In this document: one piece after another, positions 6,539 through 17,005 of the stretch
Position numbering within the stretch: the first letter of the stretch is position 1
Layout of the letters: each line of letters starts with the position of its first letter
DNA from: Candidatus Kapaibacterium sp.
GTDB lineage: Bacteria > Bacteroidota > Ignavibacteria > Kapaibacteriales > UBA4661
DNA length: 33,028 nt
NCBI GenBank assembly: GCA_025358765.1
Contig: JANYIG010000099.1
Coordinates: 1-33,028 of the forward strand
Direction of reading: 5' to 3'
The notes under the pieces: model-generated
What the model saw: only the letters and a program-made list of their open reading frames with translations
What the model was told of the DNA's origin: nothing
Databases searched by the model: none
Made by a program: the position numbers and the translations under genes

Positions 6539-6624
6539 TTAGCACGTTTTCGTGTGGACATGCGGCTAGCCTTTGTTTTGCATTGCCGCTTTCGGCTTTT
6601 CGTCGCGGTAGAAGATTTGCTCAT
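6511..6624 (-). CDS. short basic ORF overlapping the preceding stop (ATGA); possible remnant of a fourth array gene
   Basis: 37 codons starting MSKSSTATKSRKR and ending KKPLPFPKE, with 14 Lys/Arg residues. Its ATG (6624-6622) overlaps the TGA (6623-6621) of the membrane-protein gene upstream, an arrangement typical of translational coupling. Composition and opening resemble the cationic cytoplasmic tails at the N-termini of the three membrane proteins of this array, particularly the one at 8623-10200, which starts MSKKPTSASTQKKRPAKGSS. No hydrophobic segment follows; the stop codon lies inside the terminator hairpin. It may be a real small basic protein, the stub of a deleted fourth gene, or chance. 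It was found by reading the sequence past the stop of the array. Confidence 0.35.
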   Translation of the reverse strand: MSKSSTATKSRKRQCKTKASRMSTRKRAKKPLPFPKE

Positions 6625-8579
6625 GGTTGCGGGGTACGTGGAGTGGTTGGAGCGCTATCAAGCTCCATTTTGCCGACCATATACGTGCGATACGCAAAGC
6701 TCGGATCCGTCTCAGGATAGTTCGTTAAAAAACGGCTTCCACCTTTGTCATTGACGACTCTGCCGTAATGTTCGACCATATATTTTCCGTAGCGCGTTGG
6801 ATACCGCAGTTCAGGACGCATGTTTTGGTTGAGCGAGAGCAAAAATACCACATTCGGCTTTGTAGCCAAATCCCAATAGATATTTTGCACCCCAAACCTC
6901 TCCAATACTGCTTTGCTGGTAGGTGTCCGTTCCGACCACGACAGCCACAACGCATGAAATGAAGCGAAGGCATCTAAACTACTAAACGGTGCTACATATT
7001 GAAATGGGAAGCCATCTGCCCACACCACAAATAATTGATCGGCATGAGGATATAGTGTTTGTATGATGGATTCAAGCTCCTTGCTGTCGCTCTTGATTTG
7101 ACGCGATGTTGCAGCATAACCCACACAAGTGTTGAAGACCGCAATAAAGACAACCGTCAGCGCAAGAGCGCTACCGACCAAACGTAACGTCGTTCGTTGA
7201 TGGATCGCCTGCGATGAACGCTTTTCCGTCAATAGCATCGGCAACAGACACACACACGCAAAAAGAGGGTGGGTCACGCGCTCTAACGTGTCGCGGAGCA
7301 AGGTTTTTTCATTGATGTAGAGCGCCACCGCAAAAAGCGTCACGAGAAAACCCGCAGTGTACAACGCAGCTTTTCGATTGAACGGCAGCATCAGACACGC
7401 GGCGACCATTGCTACGGCAAAACTGTAAAGTGCTCGGTCGGAGGTGAACGTGGCAATCTGACGCTGGTAGAGTTTTTGTCGTAATGAGGTTTGGTGCGCC
7501 TCGTTGTCGCTTTGTTCTTGTGCGTTGCTACGGGTTGTGGTGGTAAGACGGACAAGTTCGTCGCGTACACGGGTTAGGCTTTCGGTTGTGTAGAGCTTTT
7601 CGTCCATGAAAAACCAATTTTGCAGCATTTCCAAATCATCCATAGACCAATTCCCGCCTGCTTTCAAGACCGTTGCGGCAGTTTGCGGTGATAACACAGT
7701 TCGCCGTACAATATTCACATCCAAAAACTCACTGCAAAGTTTGTTGAACTCGATATAGTTGAACGTTCCCCACGAGTTGTAGCGGTAGCTGTTGTACGAA
7801 TACGCCCCCATGCACAATATGATGCCAATCGCAAGCGCTGGAAGCTGACGCAACAACCACCCGCGAGAATCAGCAAATACCATCCGTACACCCAAAAGTG
7901 GCATAATGCAGGCAAGTACCATTAAACATGCTTCCATCCGAATCATAAATGACCAGACCAGAAGCAGCACCCCAAACAAAACAGGTAATGATAATCCTTG
8001 TAGTGTTGTCAGGTTTTGCACCCAGGACGATTCATCGTCTCGCTCTGGGTATGGCAAAAAGAACAACAGCGCCATGCTGCCGAGCGCTGCAATACTGGAA
8101 GTCATTGTAAATTGCAAACTGAGTAACATATATGCGCCGGACACAAAAAAATATGCTGTATAAAGGGCAAGCACCACAATCGTCCGTTTCCGTGACAACA
8201 TAACGTACAACAGTGCTACGTGTGCGGCAAAGAGTGTAGCCACCAAATACCACGCATACCACGCCATGCTTGGAGCAACCAAGTACAGCGCTTTGAGAAT
8301 ATGTCCGATGATGATGTTCGTAAAAATCAGATATTCCGTTGGTTCCAGCGCAATAACTTTGCCGGCGGCAAGGAACATCATGCCCGTATCATCCCGTGTG
8401 TTGAACTGAGGCGAAAAGAGCAGATACGTCAACGCGAAGAGCAAAAGATTGGCGGCAAACGCCACCCAAAGCGGTGTCCAGCGTACAGGAAGTGGTGTGG
8501 AAAGCTTATCCACAGCCGAACTCCGATGCGCTTGGCGCTTGGTGGATTTAGGGGCGGATTGTTTTTTGTGATTGCTCAT
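6621..8579 (-). CDS. polytopic membrane protein, putative GT-C glycosyltransferase (paralog A')
   Basis: 652 residues with a basic cytoplasmic tail (1-35), about 11 hydrophobic segments, and a soluble C-terminal domain of roughly 140 residues. Right after the first membrane span comes SPQFNTRDDTGMM with D63-D64; an acidic pair in the first external loop is the catalytic hallmark of GT-C enzymes that use lipid-linked sugars. Further conserved pieces are EPTEYLIFTNIIIGHILKAL, DLEMLQNWFFMDE in a large central loop, and FVVWADGFPFQYVAPF in the C-terminal domain. All recur in the protein at 10244-12196, so the two are paralogs. ATG 8579 is preferred because it follows the stop of the previous gene by 43 nt; the frame is open to 8741 but that would overlap the previous coding region. 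Substrate and acceptor unknown. Confidence 0.8.
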   Translation of the reverse strand: MSNHKKQSAPKSTKRQAHRSSAVDKLSTPLPVRWTPLWVAFAANLLLFALTYLLFSPQFNTRDDTGMMFLAAGKVIALEPTEYLIFTNIIIGHILKALYLVAPSMAWYAWYLVATLFAAHVALLYVMLSRKRTIVVLALYTAYFFVSGAYMLLSLQFTMTSSIAALGSMALLFFLPYPERDDESSWVQNLTTLQGLSLPVLFGVLLLVWSFMIRMEACLMVLACIMPLLGVRMVFADSRGWLLRQLPALAIGIILCMGAYSYNSYRYNSWGTFNYIEFNKLCSEFLDVNIVRRTVLSPQTAATVLKAGGNWSMDDLEMLQNWFFMDEKLYTTESLTRVRDELVRLTTTTRSNAQEQSDNEAHQTSLRQKLYQRQIATFTSDRALYSFAVAMVAACLMLPFNRKAALYTAGFLVTLFAVALYINEKTLLRDTLERVTHPLFACVCLLPMLLTEKRSSQAIHQRTTLRLVGSALALTVVFIAVFNTCVGYAATSRQIKSDSKELESIIQTLYPHADQLFVVWADGFPFQYVAPFSSLDAFASFHALWLSWSERTPTSKAVLERFGVQNIYWDLATKPNVVFLLSLNQNMRPELRYPTRYGKYMVEHYGRVVNDKGGSRFLTNYPETDPSFAYRTYMVGKMELDSAPTTPRTPQP

Positions 8580-8622
8580 AACGTGATTGCTCAAAACGAA
8601 AAAATGGATACGAAGAACCGTT

Positions 8623-10200
8623 TTATGAGATTTGGGTGGCTTTTGGGAGAGTTTTTTGCTCACGCCAATATCGGTATAGAATACCAGCCAGTACAAGCGC
8701 TGCCAGAGCAACTGCAATCCCTTGATAGATATAGCTTTCAAGGCTCATATAAGGACCTTGATTCATAAAATATTTCTGGAGCGGAAATGTGAACCGCGAG
8801 CCGCCGCCATAGACGTATTCCTGCATTCCGGGAAAATTTAACGGCATCCATATTTTTGTGGATACCAACGAGAGTGTCGCAATAATCCAAACCGTGAGAG
8901 TATTCACGCGAACTCTCTCCAAACCTTTGATGCAAGCAATGACCACAAAAGGGTAGAGATTTATCAACTGGCGAGATTCCGTCATAATGCTACTTAGCAA
9001 CACCGTTCCGGCAACTATCAGCATAAATCCCACTCCCAATTCCGCCGCTCCCCGCACGGTATCTTTGTACAAGAGTGCTGCAACCAACAGTATTGGTCCG
9101 AAATACACCACATTTGCTACCAACGGCAATAGTGGTTTGCCAATCGCCGCCGAAAAACTCCCGCCGAAAAACAACTCAGTTGTCATCGGTAGTGGTGCTG
9201 CGGGATTACAAAGGGATTGTTTGAAAAACCAAAGAGCAATAGCCACTACCGCCCCACAAACAAAGCGCAATGCGAATTGTCTGGTTGTGAAAAAACGCAG
9301 AATCTGGACGTACGGAAATGTTCGTGCAAATGGAAGCATCGAAGCTGCAATGTACGCAAGCACCAATGTGGCTCCCAAATAGATGGTCGGTTGAAAGAGC
9401 GCATCGGTGCCGGGGAATTGAAGCTGCTTTACAAACGAAAGATACCACATTGCGACCGCCGCAAAGAGCGTTATGACGGCTGTAAGCACGAAGCCAAGAG
9501 TTTTATTGGTCTCCGTTGCCAGAAGGTCGGTTGTGGACTGTTTTCGAGGAAAGAGAAACAAGACCATGCTGACATAAAACGCGGTGGGCCAGGTAAAAAA
9601 TCCAACGGCTGCCACCAGCAATTGTGCGGCGTGTGCCACCGAAGAATCCAGCAGGTAACAATAGATGGCGCACAGGCACAAGAATACAGCCGTTTGGTCG
9701 GTCAACGGTGGATAGTAGAAACTATATTTCATCACCGCAAAATTGACAAATAATCCCACAAAACCGAGCCATCGCAGCATTACCGACAACCGCAATCGCG
9801 TCGCAATCAACGCCCATAGTAATCCACACGCCGTCAAAATCCAAAGATTATAGACATAAAAATAATACACGGTATTTTCTCGATAGGGCAGAATGTTTTG
9901 GCTTTTGAGAATGTAGTGGACGATGGCGCTCGGCACAATACGCTGAATCCGATAGGAATCTAACGATGCGTCTGCCATATATTGGTCAAACTTAAAAACA
10001 ATATCGGCATACGCGCTACCATCCCAGCCACAACCACCATCCACGCCGATAATTTCTCCTGTTCGCATATAGATAAACCCCCATATCATAATGATAAGCG
10101 GCATAATCACGAGATAGTACGGTATCCTTGGAAAGGTTCTTGATGACCCTTTGGCAGGACGTTTTTTCTGTGTTGATGCGGAAGTTGGTTTTTTACTCAT
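8623..10200 (-). CDS. polytopic membrane protein, putative GT-C glycosyltransferase (type B)
   Basis: 525 residues, about 12 hydrophobic segments after a Lys/Ser/Thr-rich tail (1-22). The first external loop contains GGCGWDGSAYADI (D60) and, a little later, YRIQRIVPSAIVHYIL. A WDG..Y motif followed by an Arg-rich R..P segment is typical of GT-C membrane mannosyl/glycosyltransferase-like proteins (PMT/PIG-V-like layouts); this is from memory of the families. It is not closely similar to its two neighbours. It is the middle gene of a minus-strand run with 43-nt gaps on each side, so an operon is likely. The start ATG 10200 has only a weak purine stretch upstream. It may transfer a sugar from a polyprenyl-linked donor to a cell-envelope acceptor; specificity cannot be read. 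Confidence 0.75.
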   Translation of the reverse strand: MSKKPTSASTQKKRPAKGSSRTFPRIPYYLVIMPLIIMIWGFIYMRTGEIIGVDGGCGWDGSAYADIVFKFDQYMADASLDSYRIQRIVPSAIVHYILKSQNILPYRENTVYYFYVYNLWILTACGLLWALIATRLRLSVMLRWLGFVGLFVNFAVMKYSFYYPPLTDQTAVFLCLCAIYCYLLDSSVAHAAQLLVAAVGFFTWPTAFYVSMVLFLFPRKQSTTDLLATETNKTLGFVLTAVITLFAAVAMWYLSFVKQLQFPGTDALFQPTIYLGATLVLAYIAASMLPFARTFPYVQILRFFTTRQFALRFVCGAVVAIALWFFKQSLCNPAAPLPMTTELFFGGSFSAAIGKPLLPLVANVVYFGPILLVAALLYKDTVRGAAELGVGFMLIVAGTVLLSSIMTESRQLINLYPFVVIACIKGLERVRVNTLTVWIIATLSLVSTKIWMPLNFPGMQEYVYGGGSRFTFPLQKYFMNQGPYMSLESYIYQGIAVALAALVLAGILYRYWREQKTLPKATQIS

Positions 10201-10243: not shown

Positions 10244-12196
10244 TTACGGTTGATACATGATGCTCATTTCCACATACGTTGAATATGGGTCTGGTTTTGT
10301 CCCGGCGGCATAAGGAGGCAGATACCGCACACCATCCGGCTTTGTCAGGACATTTTTCCCATAATGCTCTTTTATATACTGGTTCAAGCGTTGATGATAG
10401 ACAAGTGCGGGGCTTGCGAGTTGATTTAGCACAAACAACACTTTCACGTTGTCGTTGCCTGCAATGGATGTGTAGATGTTCTGAATGTTATATCGAGCGA
10501 GCGTTGCTTTGGCAGTGGGCGTACGTTGCGCCCACGATAACCAAAGTGCGTGAAAATTTACGAATTCAGTAAGCCCGTCGAACGGGGCAATAGAGCCAAG
10601 CGGAAAACCATCCGCCCAAATTACGTACAAATTCTCTGGTTTGGGCTGGAACGCCGCCATCACGCGCTGCAATTCACTGCGATTAGTAGCGGCTTGTGTG
10701 GAAAGACCCGCATATTTGCTTACGGCTGACCATGTACCCACAAGCACTGCCACAAGTGCCACTGCTCCCACCGCAAGCCGTAGCGTCGTTTTTTGTCGGA
10801 GTGCGTTAGTCTCACCTTTGCTACCCATCTGTACACTCGTGCCGGCAATCAGGAAGGGCAACAGGCTTGCGTAGGCAAAAAGCGGGTAAAAGACTCGTTC
10901 CGGCATGTCCCGCATAAGTGTCTGATAGTTGACATAGAGCGCCAATCCCGCAAATGAGCACATAAACAGTGCTACTTTGAGCAAAGAATAGCGATTCATC
11001 GTGAACATGAAGCAGCCGCAAAACAGTGCTAATGCGGTTGCGAACAACGCCGTTGTGGAAGAGAATGTTGCAATTTGGCGGTCAACGAGTTTGGAGCGCA
11101 GAGCCGCACGGTTTGCTTCAACTTCCTTTTGGATAGCGGCATCGGCATACACTTTTTTGTCATATTCTTCAAAGGAGGCTTTCAAAATCGTTAGCTTTTC
11201 CGTGCTGAATACGGTTTCGTCCATAAAAAACCAATTCATGAGGATTTCAAAATCGTATGCCGACCAACCAACACGTTGCATAATCGTATTAAACTCCTCC
11301 GGCGGCATCTTCACACGCATGTCAGCGCCAAAATCGAGAAAATGCCCGTAAAGTTTGTTAAACGTTACCGCATTTTCTGTTCCCCAATGCTCGTACCGAT
11401 ACGAGTTGTAGCCTACAACTGCCGCACAAAGCAGCATTGCAACGCCAAGCGCTGGAAGCTGTAGCAATAGTCGTTTTCGCGTTGTGCTGAACAGCGCATC
11501 AACCGCTACGATTGGCAGAGTACAAGCGGCTATCAACAATAGCGATTCCATCCGTATCATGTCTGCCCATACAATCAAGCCAATACCACATAATGCATTG
11601 ATGCTGCGTAATCGTGCGAACCATGGTTGTTGTTCATCTTTTTTATTATCAGGAAGGAAGAACAGAAGCGCCATTCCAGCAATTGCAACGATACTGGCAA
11701 TCATTGTAAACTGGAGGCTTAAAAATAGATATGTACCCAATACAAGGAAGTATGCGACATAGAGGACAACGGTGAGCAAATTGTTAAATTTCCGAAGAAA
11801 CAGGTACAACAACGCTGTATGTGCCAGAAACAGGCTCGCTACCAGATACAGCGCATACCAAGCCACGCTGGGCATAGCAGAATAAAGCGCTTTGAGTAAA
11901 TGCCCGATAAGGATGTTCGTGAAAAGTAGATATTCCGTTGGTTCGAGCGCAATAATTTTGCCGGCAGACAGGAGCATCATGCCAATGTCATCGCGTGTGT
12001 TAAATTGTGGTGTCCATAGCAGATAAGTCAAGGCACAAAGCGCAGCGTTCACTACAAGTGCCGTCAGCACTGGGTTCCAGCGCAGCGCGAATGGTGCAAA
12101 AAAATGCTCGATAGTCGTGAACAATGCAGACGACGAGCGTTGTGCAGAGGTTTTACTGGTGGAAGGCTGCGGAGAGGTTTGTTTGCGTTGTTTCAT
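10244..12196 (-). CDS. polytopic membrane protein, putative GT-C glycosyltransferase (paralog A)
   Basis: 650 residues with the same architecture as the protein at 6621-8579: a basic Ser/Thr-rich tail (1-40), about 11 membrane segments, and a C-terminal soluble domain. The first external loop reads TPQFNTRDDIGMMLLSAG with D69-D70. The segments EPTEYLLFTNILIGHLLKAL, YDFEILMNWFFMDE, YVIWADGFPLGSIAPF and ALWLSWAQRTPTAKATL match its paralog closely. Similarity is also visible at DNA level, for example around the EPTEY region. It is the first gene of the array in transcription order. ATG 12196 is chosen over a TTG at 12211, which adds only five residues; neither has a good Shine-Dalgarno. Comparable proteins in Firmicutes are, as I remember, unnamed polysaccharide-related membrane proteins. 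Function is inferred from topology and the Asp pair. Confidence 0.8.
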   Translation of the reverse strand: MKQRKQTSPQPSTSKTSAQRSSSALFTTIEHFFAPFALRWNPVLTALVVNAALCALTYLLWTPQFNTRDDIGMMLLSAGKIIALEPTEYLLFTNILIGHLLKALYSAMPSVAWYALYLVASLFLAHTALLYLFLRKFNNLLTVVLYVAYFLVLGTYLFLSLQFTMIASIVAIAGMALLFFLPDNKKDEQQPWFARLRSINALCGIGLIVWADMIRMESLLLIAACTLPIVAVDALFSTTRKRLLLQLPALGVAMLLCAAVVGYNSYRYEHWGTENAVTFNKLYGHFLDFGADMRVKMPPEEFNTIMQRVGWSAYDFEILMNWFFMDETVFSTEKLTILKASFEEYDKKVYADAAIQKEVEANRAALRSKLVDRQIATFSSTTALFATALALFCGCFMFTMNRYSLLKVALFMCSFAGLALYVNYQTLMRDMPERVFYPLFAYASLLPFLIAGTSVQMGSKGETNALRQKTTLRLAVGAVALVAVLVGTWSAVSKYAGLSTQAATNRSELQRVMAAFQPKPENLYVIWADGFPLGSIAPFDGLTEFVNFHALWLSWAQRTPTAKATLARYNIQNIYTSIAGNDNVKVLFVLNQLASPALVYHQRLNQYIKEHYGKNVLTKPDGVRYLPPYAAGTKPDPYSTYVEMSIMYQP

Positions 12197-12593
12197 ACAG
12201 GGAATTGTCAAGCGATGATTTAGTCAGATATCGTCGTCACTCAAGCAACGACAAGGAGGTTATAAAGGTTGCAAGGCGCTCAATATACGGTTTTTCGTGG
12301 AAATTTTTCAAAACTCTTGGCGCTAAAAAAGCGGCAACCATCTCTCTATTGATTATTCCTGCCATGTTGTCATACTACGGTCTGCAACTATGGCAGAATA
12401 GCCGAAGTGATTATTGTGTTCTGACAAAATGGCGGCTCGAAAACGCTTTTAGTCTGACAAAATGGCGTAAAAAGCGCATGAAACCTAATTGGCATGGTTT
12501 TCGTACAAGCAACTGGCGTACACGATAAACAAACAATAAAACGCATCGAAACGCCGAAAATCAACAATCTTTTAATCCATTAGGAGAACCGGT
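12197..12593. other. divergent intergenic region between the membrane array and hsp20 genes
   Basis: About 400 nt. It must hold the promoter of the minus-strand array and that of the first hsp20. The main visible content is the set of four palindromic sites at 12359-12468. Short open frames exist on both strands (for example 12237-12365 minus, 42 codons) but lack ribosome sites and recognisable content. No confident -35/-10 pair was assigned. Confidence 0.6.
12359..12468. promoter_or_regulatory. four copies of an imperfect palindrome CTGNCA-N3-TGNCAG upstream of the hsp20 cluster
   Basis: Copies: CTGCCATGTTGTCAT (12359-12373), CTGCAACTATGGCAG (12382-12396), CTGACAAAATGGCGG (12421-12435) and CTGACAAAATGGCGT (12454-12468). 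Each matches 10 or 11 of the 12 fixed positions of a perfectly symmetric consensus. Copies 3 and 4 share the 15-mer TCTGACAAAATGGCG exactly. Start-to-start distances are 23, 39 and 33 nt. Being repeated and symmetric in a 110-nt stretch ahead of a heat-shock gene suggests a regulator site; the factor is not identified. Confidence 0.55.
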
Positions 12594-13055
12594 ATGAACC
12601 GCTTTCATTTCGACCCACGCGATATGCAAAACTTCCAGAACGTTGCCGAAACAGTGGCGGAACGATTAGGCGACATTTTTAATGAAGTCGGCAGAAACAC
12701 GAGGGCTGCAACCTCAGAGCAACAAGGGAAATCGAAAATTCGTTTCGATATAGCCGATGATGGGGAAAATGTGTACGTCTTTGCGGAGCTTCCGGGCGTT
12801 CGTAAGGAAGATGTGAGCGTAACATTGAACGACGAAAATGTTTTGACGATAAAAGGCGATAAAAAGCGCCCTGAAGCTGATGAGAAGAACTTTACTCTCG
12901 TTGAACGTAAGTACGGAACATTTAGCCGTTCGGTGGCAATGAACGAACAAATCGAACAAGAGCGCATCACCGCTGAGTTCCGCGATGGTGTCTTAACTGT
13001 CACGCTTCCGAAACTTGTGCCAGTGACGAAAGAATTTAGAGTGAATATTCAGTAA
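12594..13055 (+). CDS. small heat shock protein, Hsp20/alpha-crystallin family (first copy)
   Basis: 153 residues. The alpha-crystallin domain spans about residues 47-140: it opens with KIRFDIADDGENVYVFAELPGV, continues with the KEDVSVTLNDENVLTIKG block and RKYGTFSRSVAM, and closes with the family signature FRDGVLTVTLPK. The N-terminal arm (1-46) is short and charged, and the C-terminal tail ends KEFRVNIQ. Such proteins form oligomers that hold unfolded proteins without ATP until DnaK or other chaperones refold them. AGGAGA about 8 nt before ATG 12594 gives a clear ribosome site. It leads a run of three same-strand hsp20 genes and lies directly downstream of the four palindromic sites, so it is probably stress-induced. 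Confidence 0.95.
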   Translation: MNRFHFDPRDMQNFQNVAETVAERLGDIFNEVGRNTRAATSEQQGKSKIRFDIADDGENVYVFAELPGVRKEDVSVTLNDENVLTIKGDKKRPEADEKNFTLVERKYGTFSRSVAMNEQIEQERITAEFRDGVLTVTLPKLVPVTKEFRVNIQ

Positions 13056-13262
13056 CTGAAAAATTCAGTACTGCCCAAAACAAGCATCAGTGCGGTTTAC
13101 ACGGATTGGATGGGCAAACAACAAATTAAGAGTGAGGCGTTCTCTCGTTCAATCCGTTGAATCCGCAGCAATTTCAGGTAAAGATATTGTCATACAAGGC
13201 GTACACAAAACCCTTACAATCTCAATCACACGATATAACAGAATTACGAAAGGATGATGACC

Positions 13263-13646
13263 ATGACTGCGACTTTCAAAACCCCGCATTTTAGAACCCA
13301 ATGGAATGTTGACACTGCGGCTTGTCTCATGCCCCGCGTCAATGTTGCGGACAGCGATACCGAACTTTCGGTCTATGTCTTTTTGCCGGGTGTAACAAAA
13401 GAAGATGTGACCGTAAATGTGAGTGATGAACGCGTGCTGACCATCAAAGGCGAAAAAAAGCGTGGCGAACAGCCCGAAGGCTTAAAATTCCAACGGAAAG
13501 AGCGTCGTTTTGGAGCTTTCAAACGCCAATTCTATTTGCCGAAACATGTCAGTTCGGAGAATATCGGCGCAACGTTCGAGAATGGCGTACTGACCGTTAC
13601 GCTCCAGAAAACACAGCCGAAAACGACGACCGTGGAAATCAAATAA
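13263..13646 (+). CDS. small heat shock protein, Hsp20/alpha-crystallin family (second copy)
   Basis: 127 residues, the shortest of the three. The alpha-crystallin domain fills nearly the whole protein (about residues 23-118), with ELSVYVFLPGVTKEDVTVNV, VLTIKGEKKRG, RRFGAFKRQFYLP and FENGVLTVTLQK; the tail ends TTTVEIK. It lacks the long N-terminal arm of the third copy, and would form smaller oligomers if other family members are a guide. ATG 13263 is preferred because AAAGG sits about 9 nt upstream; the ATGs at 13254 and 13257 directly abut that Shine-Dalgarno. A 12-nt piece containing the stop codon, GAAATCAAATAA, is repeated 17 nt later, indicating a small tandem duplication at the gene end. 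About 200 nt separate it from the first copy, so it may have its own promoter. Confidence 0.94.
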   Translation: MTATFKTPHFRTQWNVDTAACLMPRVNVADSDTELSVYVFLPGVTKEDVTVNVSDERVLTIKGEKKRGEQPEGLKFQRKERRFGAFKRQFYLPKHVSSENIGATFENGVLTVTLQKTQPKTTTVEIK

Positions 13647-13941: not shown

Positions 13942-14592
13942 ATGAATACCATGAATATCGTTCGCTTCCAGCCGTTTGGCGAGTTTGACCGCGTTGCAAA
14001 TCATCTTGTACGCCGCGCTTTCAATCAAAATTTTCGCCCATTTGCCGAATTGGAACACACGGCAAGCGAACTTACAAAACAAGTAAATACGCAATTTTCG
14101 GACATTGTTCGCGCATTTGACCAAAACTTTAGCGAGTTTACCAGCAAAACAGGTTTGACGAGCAATCGCGTTTTTAACGTGTGGTCGGACGCAGCGTTTT
14201 TGGGCAATAGCCTTCTGAACACGGTTCTTAATGGCGCGAATGCAACAAACGGCGAATTTGTGCCGCGTATGGACGTTACCGAAAATGAGACATCCATTAA
14301 CCTATATGTTGAATTGGCGGGTTTGAGTAAAGATGACGTGTCGGTTACCGTCAGCGAAGACCGTATTTTGACTATTAAAGGTGAACGCAAGCGCGAAGCC
14401 ACAACGGAAGACGCTGCAAAAAATATCATTCGCACCGAACGTCACTACGGCACGTTTGCTCGTTCGTTTGCATTGCCGGAATACGTGAACGCAGAAAGCG
14501 TAAGCGGCAAATTCGAGAACGGCGTTCTTGCGCTTACGCTCGAAAAAGTGGAGCCGGTGCAGCCAAAGCAAATTGAAGTGAAAATCAAGTAA
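13942..14592 (+). CDS. small heat shock protein, Hsp20/alpha-crystallin family (third copy, long N-terminal arm)
   Basis: 216 residues. The first ~110 residues form an extended amphipathic, Phe/Gln/Asn-rich arm with repeated FxQ/FxxF pieces (for example RRAFNQNFRPFAELEHTA and RAFDQNFSEFTS), an arrangement that drives oligomerisation and substrate capture in this family. The alpha-crystallin domain (about 113-205) includes ETSINLYVELAGLSKDDVSV, RILTIKGERKR, RHYGTFARSFALPEYV and FENGVLALTLEK. The C-terminal tail ends KQIEVKIK, where IEV may serve as the I-x-I/V anchor. ATG 13942 has GGAG eight bases upstream; an in-frame start at 13873 would add a segment without an RBS. It is followed by a hairpin and then dnaK. 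Confidence 0.95.
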   Translation: MNTMNIVRFQPFGEFDRVANHLVRRAFNQNFRPFAELEHTASELTKQVNTQFSDIVRAFDQNFSEFTSKTGLTSNRVFNVWSDAAFLGNSLLNTVLNGANATNGEFVPRMDVTENETSINLYVELAGLSKDDVSVTVSEDRILTIKGERKREATTEDAAKNIIRTERHYGTFARSFALPEYVNAESVSGKFENGVLALTLEKVEPVQPKQIEVKIK

Positions 14593-16952
<2,360 letters not shown>

Positions 16953-16969: not shown

Positions 16970-17005
16970 ACGAGCCACTTGTTTGAATGCAAGTGGCTCG
17001 TTTGG
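16970..17005 (+). terminator. terminator after dnaK
   Basis: ACGAGCCACTTG (16970-16981) and CAAGTGGCTCGT (16990-17001) form a perfect 12-bp stem with an 8-nt loop, followed by TTTGGTTT. It lies 17 nt after the dnaK stop, so dnaK is transcribed separately from the protease gene. Confidence 0.85.

Follow-up and report, generated by a model that had tools for sequence, protein, structure and literature searches.

Promoter-phased symmetric sites ahead of the hsp20–dnaK unit of Kapabacteriales as probable activator sites of a sigma-54 promoter

The four symmetric sites that precede the first hsp20 gene in a 33,028-nt stretch of a 'Candidatus Kapaibacterium' genome (the window, by which the whole stretch analysed is meant) are best read, with a probability of roughly four in five, as upstream activating sequences (UAS) through which an activator switches on a sigma-54 promoter of an hsp20–dnaK unit, rather than as a repressor operator. 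The evidence throughout is computational. The first-pass annotation, which took the sites for a possible heat-shock or stress operator of hsp20, was right to see in them a real and conserved control element of stress genes; the sites are, however, most likely those of an activator and not a classical operator, and hsp20 is too narrow a target, sites being found in the dnaK leaders of relatives as well. The genome in question (G000; 4.86 Mb in 362 contigs) belongs to an order of 'Candidatus Kapaibacterium' MAGs, taken here to be the Kapabacteriales.

All four sites lie where they had been placed, at 12359–12468, and none of them is a perfect match to CTGNCA-N3-TGNCAG. UAS 1 (CTGCCATGTTGTCAT, 12359–12373), UAS 2 (CTGCAACTATGGCAG, 12382–12396) and UAS 3 (CTGACAAAATGGCGG, 12421–12435) each have one mismatch and UAS 4 (CTGACAAAATGGCGT, 12454–12468) has two, no strand being assigned to any of them; their offsets are −130, −107, −68 and −35, respectively, with the first, third and fourth in phase with the promoter and the second lying about 2 bp out of the shared phase. 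The last two sites had been described as sharing an identical 15-mer, and they do have TCTGACAAAATGGCG in common, but it begins one base 5' of the motif and, in the register of the motif itself, base 15 is G in UAS 3 and T in UAS 4. Over the whole window, the 12 matches with up to two mismatches are at chance level (11.8 expected); four sites within 110 nt were reached in none of 1000 dinucleotide-preserving shuffles, the biggest shuffled cluster being of three sites (in 12 shuffles), and three matches with at most one mismatch were likewise reached in none of 1000.

Downstream of the sites, at 12489–12504 on the plus strand, is a sigma-54-like −24/−12 promoter, TTGGCATGGTTTTCGT, which the first-pass annotation had missed and in which the −24 element is complete (TTGGCAT, counted as a YTGGCAC element) and the −12 element, TCGT, deviates from TTGC. 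Nearly all hsp20 leaders of relatives carry TTGGCAC-R-N-TTTT, in other words a −24 element of the sigma-54 type with an unusual, T-rich −12 element, and the order-wide consensus is TTGGCAC-R-N-TTTT-[CT][CG][TA]. TTGGCA(C/T), TGGCACG or CTGGCAC is present in 55 of 57 leaders, and TGGCA in all 55 promoter-bearing leaders, which were chosen by this very element. At −12 the relatives mostly have TTCW or TCSW as against TTGC, the place of the G being taken by C in 32 of the 55 leaders and by G in 16, while canonical TTGC is seen in some leaders of Chlorobi and Planctomycetes. Despite this unusual −12 element the promoter is predicted to be sigma-54 dependent; rpoN was found in 60 of 61 genomes, and both rpoN and bacterial enhancer-binding proteins (bEBPs) are encoded in G000. 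In genera g1 and g3 of family f1 (G000, including its rpoN on contig C275, and G002–G009) the match to PF04552, the sigma-54 DNA-binding domain, is split in two, whereas it is unbroken in G001 (g2) and elsewhere; the corresponding region of the f1 g1/g3 RpoN has an apparent insertion of about 20–35 residues.

Conservation of the element, for which hsp20 leaders were collected from relatives in ten families, is strong in relatives that stood outside the definition of the motif. In the 54 leaders tested, with the window left out, the 170 nt upstream of −24 contain 89 sites with two mismatches or fewer (present in 42 leaders) against 2.7 in mononucleotide shuffles, and 63 against 2.2 when family f1 is removed. 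CTGNCA ranks first of 1024 half-sites in these leaders, and 3 nt is the only spacer that works. Moreover, a period of 10.5 bp runs through the distances from site to promoter (R = 0.754, n = 93) and persists when one site per family and position is retained (R = 0.667, n = 62; equalled by none of 2000 random sets), although, the genomes being related and hence non-independent, these conservation and phasing figures are descriptive and not exact probabilities. The sites show what is expected of bEBP UAS, namely multiple dyads upstream of the promoter that are both conserved and phased. In family f4 the N3 site is missing from the hsp20 leaders (L030, L040 and L045), which contain TGCC(A/G)-N5-TGGCA palindromes instead, and the dnaK genes of this family keep N3 sites, at −26.

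The promoter is followed on the plus strand by hsp20-1 (12594–13055; Pfam HSP20, 3.3e-19), hsp20-2 (13254–13646), hsp20-3 (13942–14592) and dnaK (15000–16952; above the NCBIfam DnaK cut-off), the last being the probable final gene of the unit, with a terminator-like hairpin of 13 pairs directly 3' of it (16970–17001, plus strand). The three hsp20 genes and dnaK may form one transcript, an idea weakened by intergenic gaps of 199–408 nt; in families f1, f2, f3, f5, f6 and f9, hsp20 and dnaK are neighbours. The earlier proposal of control over the first hsp20 or a polycistronic transcript is judged right, and so is that of a single element, confined to the leader of that gene: in the hsp20 cluster loci of the window and of six of seven same-family relatives (together L016–L020, L022 and L023), no other TTGGCA(C/T) precedes an hsp20. 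The seventh relative, G004 (L021), has CTGGCATAG and UAS sites in the corresponding position, without an exact TTGGCA(C/T). Upstream, on the minus strand, the window encodes two long, related-looking membrane proteins (6621–8741 and 10244–12211), the second of which matched no NCBIfam model.

An even spread of hits through the genome had been named in advance as evidence against the proposal, and the bare motif is indeed spread in this way, with 100 matches genome-wide against 107 for the reversed control. Only together with its promoter context does the motif have specificity. A strict composite, AAAANYGTGCCAA-N8-38-GNCANNNTGNC, scanned over 61 whole genomes, gave 15 matches at 14 loci, 13 of them leaders of hsp20 and the other a leader of dnaK, against three matches for the reversed pattern. 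A dnaK that is not placed behind hsp20 has its own copy of sites plus promoter in nine of nine cases (G010, G033, G054, G045, G035, G028, G050, G024 and G016); in G010, where no hsp20 was found in the genome, the element is directly ahead of dnaK. Neither hsp20 nor a true dnaK match was found in G017 and G052, which assembly gaps may explain, and a looser composite (UAS plus TGCCAA) is mostly noise, yet includes the dnaK leaders of family f4. Together with the conservation, the phasing and the coupling to the −24 element, this confinement of the composite to hsp20 and dnaK leaders and dnaK's own copies make activator sites the most likely reading.

In mechanistic terms, a homodimeric bEBP of the Fis type would bind the four UAS on the helical face of the promoter, and its AAA+ ring would remodel the sigma-54 RNA polymerase waiting at 12489–12504, thereby switching on hsp20-1 and probably also hsp20-2, hsp20-3 and dnaK, with protein-folding stress as the presumed trigger.

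The regulator had been predicted to be encoded outside the window, rightly as far as can be judged, and among the nine true bEBPs of G000 it is rather likely, from co-occurrence, to be an AAA+/Fis protein designated group A (G000:C114:4663–5973, minus strand). In a tree of 96 bEBPs group A, which is composed of AAA+ plus Fis without a receiver, is found in Kapabacteria and Chlorobi, and it is the only clade that is both common to the sampled members of the two and present in every sampled Kapabacteria family. A profile of its Fis domain has a clear match (66 bits or more, the next class reaching 55 bits or less) in 57 of 61 genomes, and it also matches in three further Chlorobi. Of the four genomes in which a clear match is missing, G006, G013 and G055 are fragmented assemblies, G006 having four UAS nonetheless, and in G048 the protein sequence breaks off within the Fis domain; in the Chlorobi genome G064 sites are present and group A was not found. 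The recognition helix, LGISERTLYRK, is almost invariant, in keeping with the unchanging UAS. In G019 there are just two true bEBPs, one each of groups A and C. No group A gene stands beside hsp20, nor does any bEBP adjoin the hsp20 loci of relatives in Kapabacteria or Chlorobi; in G007 the gene is about 3 kb downstream of rpoN (L203 2607–8871, G007:C51) and in G005 about 5 kb from it (G005:C516). A single AlphaFold model (mean pLDDT 73), which is informative as to domain order only, gives AAA+, a disordered stretch, a 34-residue helix and Fis. Lacking receiver and sensor domains alike, group A would depend on a partner for its control, and it may be speculated that the chaperones themselves are that partner. 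It is a tentative and less probable extension of this idea that the core DnaK/small-Hsp heat-shock response of Kapabacteria and Chlorobi is a dedicated sigma-54 circuit, with its sensor-less, clade-wide AAA+/Fis activator set by free chaperone; if true, this would be a bacterial heat-shock loop in which sigma-54 replaces sigma-32.

It is possible, if doubtful, that the sites are bound by another bEBP, either the order-wide response regulator of group C or an orphan response-regulator bEBP on contig C23 of G000. Group C does occur in all the Kapabacteria families sampled in the tree; but it is confined to Kapabacteria, not being found in the sampled Chlorobi, and its recognition helix is not constant (SREHCHRLIK, SRETLHNKIR), unlike the UAS. 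Although only about 2.8 kb separate the C23 bEBP from a fourth hsp20, with uspA nearby, it is not order-wide, and it was rejected as the activator as there are no CTGNCA sites at the fourth hsp20. At this locus (L090 5554–13040, G000:C23), perhaps a separate sigma-54 stress island, the receiver-type bEBP is accompanied by two uspA-like genes, one for a YtfJ-like protein and the fourth hsp20, which has a TGGCATGGCATTTGGCT of its own; multihaem cytochrome-like genes come next.

Far less probable is an operator that has nothing to do with sigma-54, be it for a repressor or for heat shock, of the HrcA/CIRCE, HspR or RheA kind, to which inverted repeats preceding chaperone genes might point. The sites are 35–130 nt upstream of the promoter and never overlap it; they keep phase with it for about 12 turns and go together with TTGGCAC. 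Moreover, CIRCE (TTAGCACTC-N9-GAGTGCTAA) is absent from the hsp20 leader, and its reported absence was borne out across the window at up to three mismatches, whereas groES–groEL in the same genome has a perfect CIRCE at groES. Two chaperone circuits therefore appear to coexist in G000, and groEL, which had been listed among the chaperone genes to be checked for the motif, is outside the regulon here. That the cluster is a product of chance, or a by-product of the overlapping 134-residue ORF at 12124–12528, is scarcely credible, since, common as single sites with two mismatches are, the clustering is beyond the shuffles and, across the order, the leaders of hsp20 and dnaK keep the sites in a fixed phase.

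As activator sites, the four UAS invite comparison with sigma-54 promoters of the NtrC/PspF/NorR type, which they resemble in the −24 TTGGCAC, the multiple upstream dimeric sites and a genome that encodes rpoN as well as AAA+/Fis activators, and from which they differ in a −12 element that is TTCW/TCSW in most leaders and not TTGC, in the hsp20–dnaK chaperone unit as target and in a candidate activator that is sensor-less and has the 34-residue helix between AAA+ and Fis. NorR sites are GTCA-N3-TGAC; the GNCA-N3-TGNC geometry is thus shared, as is the placing of several such sites before a sigma-54 promoter, whereas here the fourth base is free (C/T/A) and the outer CT..AG is conserved. As a NorR orthologue group A was rejected (298.5 bits against an NCBIfam cut-off of 476, and no GAF domain). 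PspF is also AAA+ plus Fis without an N-terminal sensor, but has different targets, and group A has the extra linker helix; its score as PspF, 281.1 against 443.55 bits, is likewise below the cut-off, and group A reached no NCBIfam equivalog cut-off among the matches listed.

In the classical picture, bacterial DnaK is controlled through sigma-32 or HrcA/CIRCE. A sigma-54 route kept across an order, with an enhancer that is defined and phased, would show how a lineage can place its central chaperone unit under an activator-gated promoter, and it gives a widely conserved, sensor-less bEBP a target that can be tested. Some Chlorobi relatives are cultivable, such that the circuit could be tested in them. 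In Escherichia coli the small heat-shock gene ibpB has, as cited in PMC4316790, a sigma-54 promoter additional to sigma-32 control, while here the sigma-54 promoter is apparently the main one, is order-wide and extends to dnaK. A 2025 in-silico survey found predicted sigma-54 promoters enriched at DnaK, IbpA and GroEL genes of Bacteroidota and Planctomycetota; the available part of that paper does not give an activator, UAS, phasing or regulon, and groESL here has CIRCE (PMC12316311). In Myxococcus an NtrC-like protein, HsfA, activates the heat-shock gene lonD (PMC9109919), but HsfA is a phosphorelay response regulator with another target. No description of the UAS or of the activator was found in the literature searched.

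Beyond the order, the arrangement, which is order-wide in Kapabacteriales, is apparently common also to the green sulfur bacteria (Chlorobi): their hsp20 leaders contain 10 sites, where shuffles give 0.54, and sigma-54 promoters, of which some show TTGC. The evidence from Planctomycetes is weaker: six hsp20 leaders have canonical sigma-54 promoters and six GNCA-N3-TGNC cores against 0.24 shuffled, and the full motif is weak there, 2 of 300 shuffles reaching the observed level. Sigma-54 promoters ahead of hsp20, many with canonical TTGC, occur far outside the order, in Chlorobi (L144–L195) and in Planctomycetes (L138, L149, L164, L169, L170 and L175).
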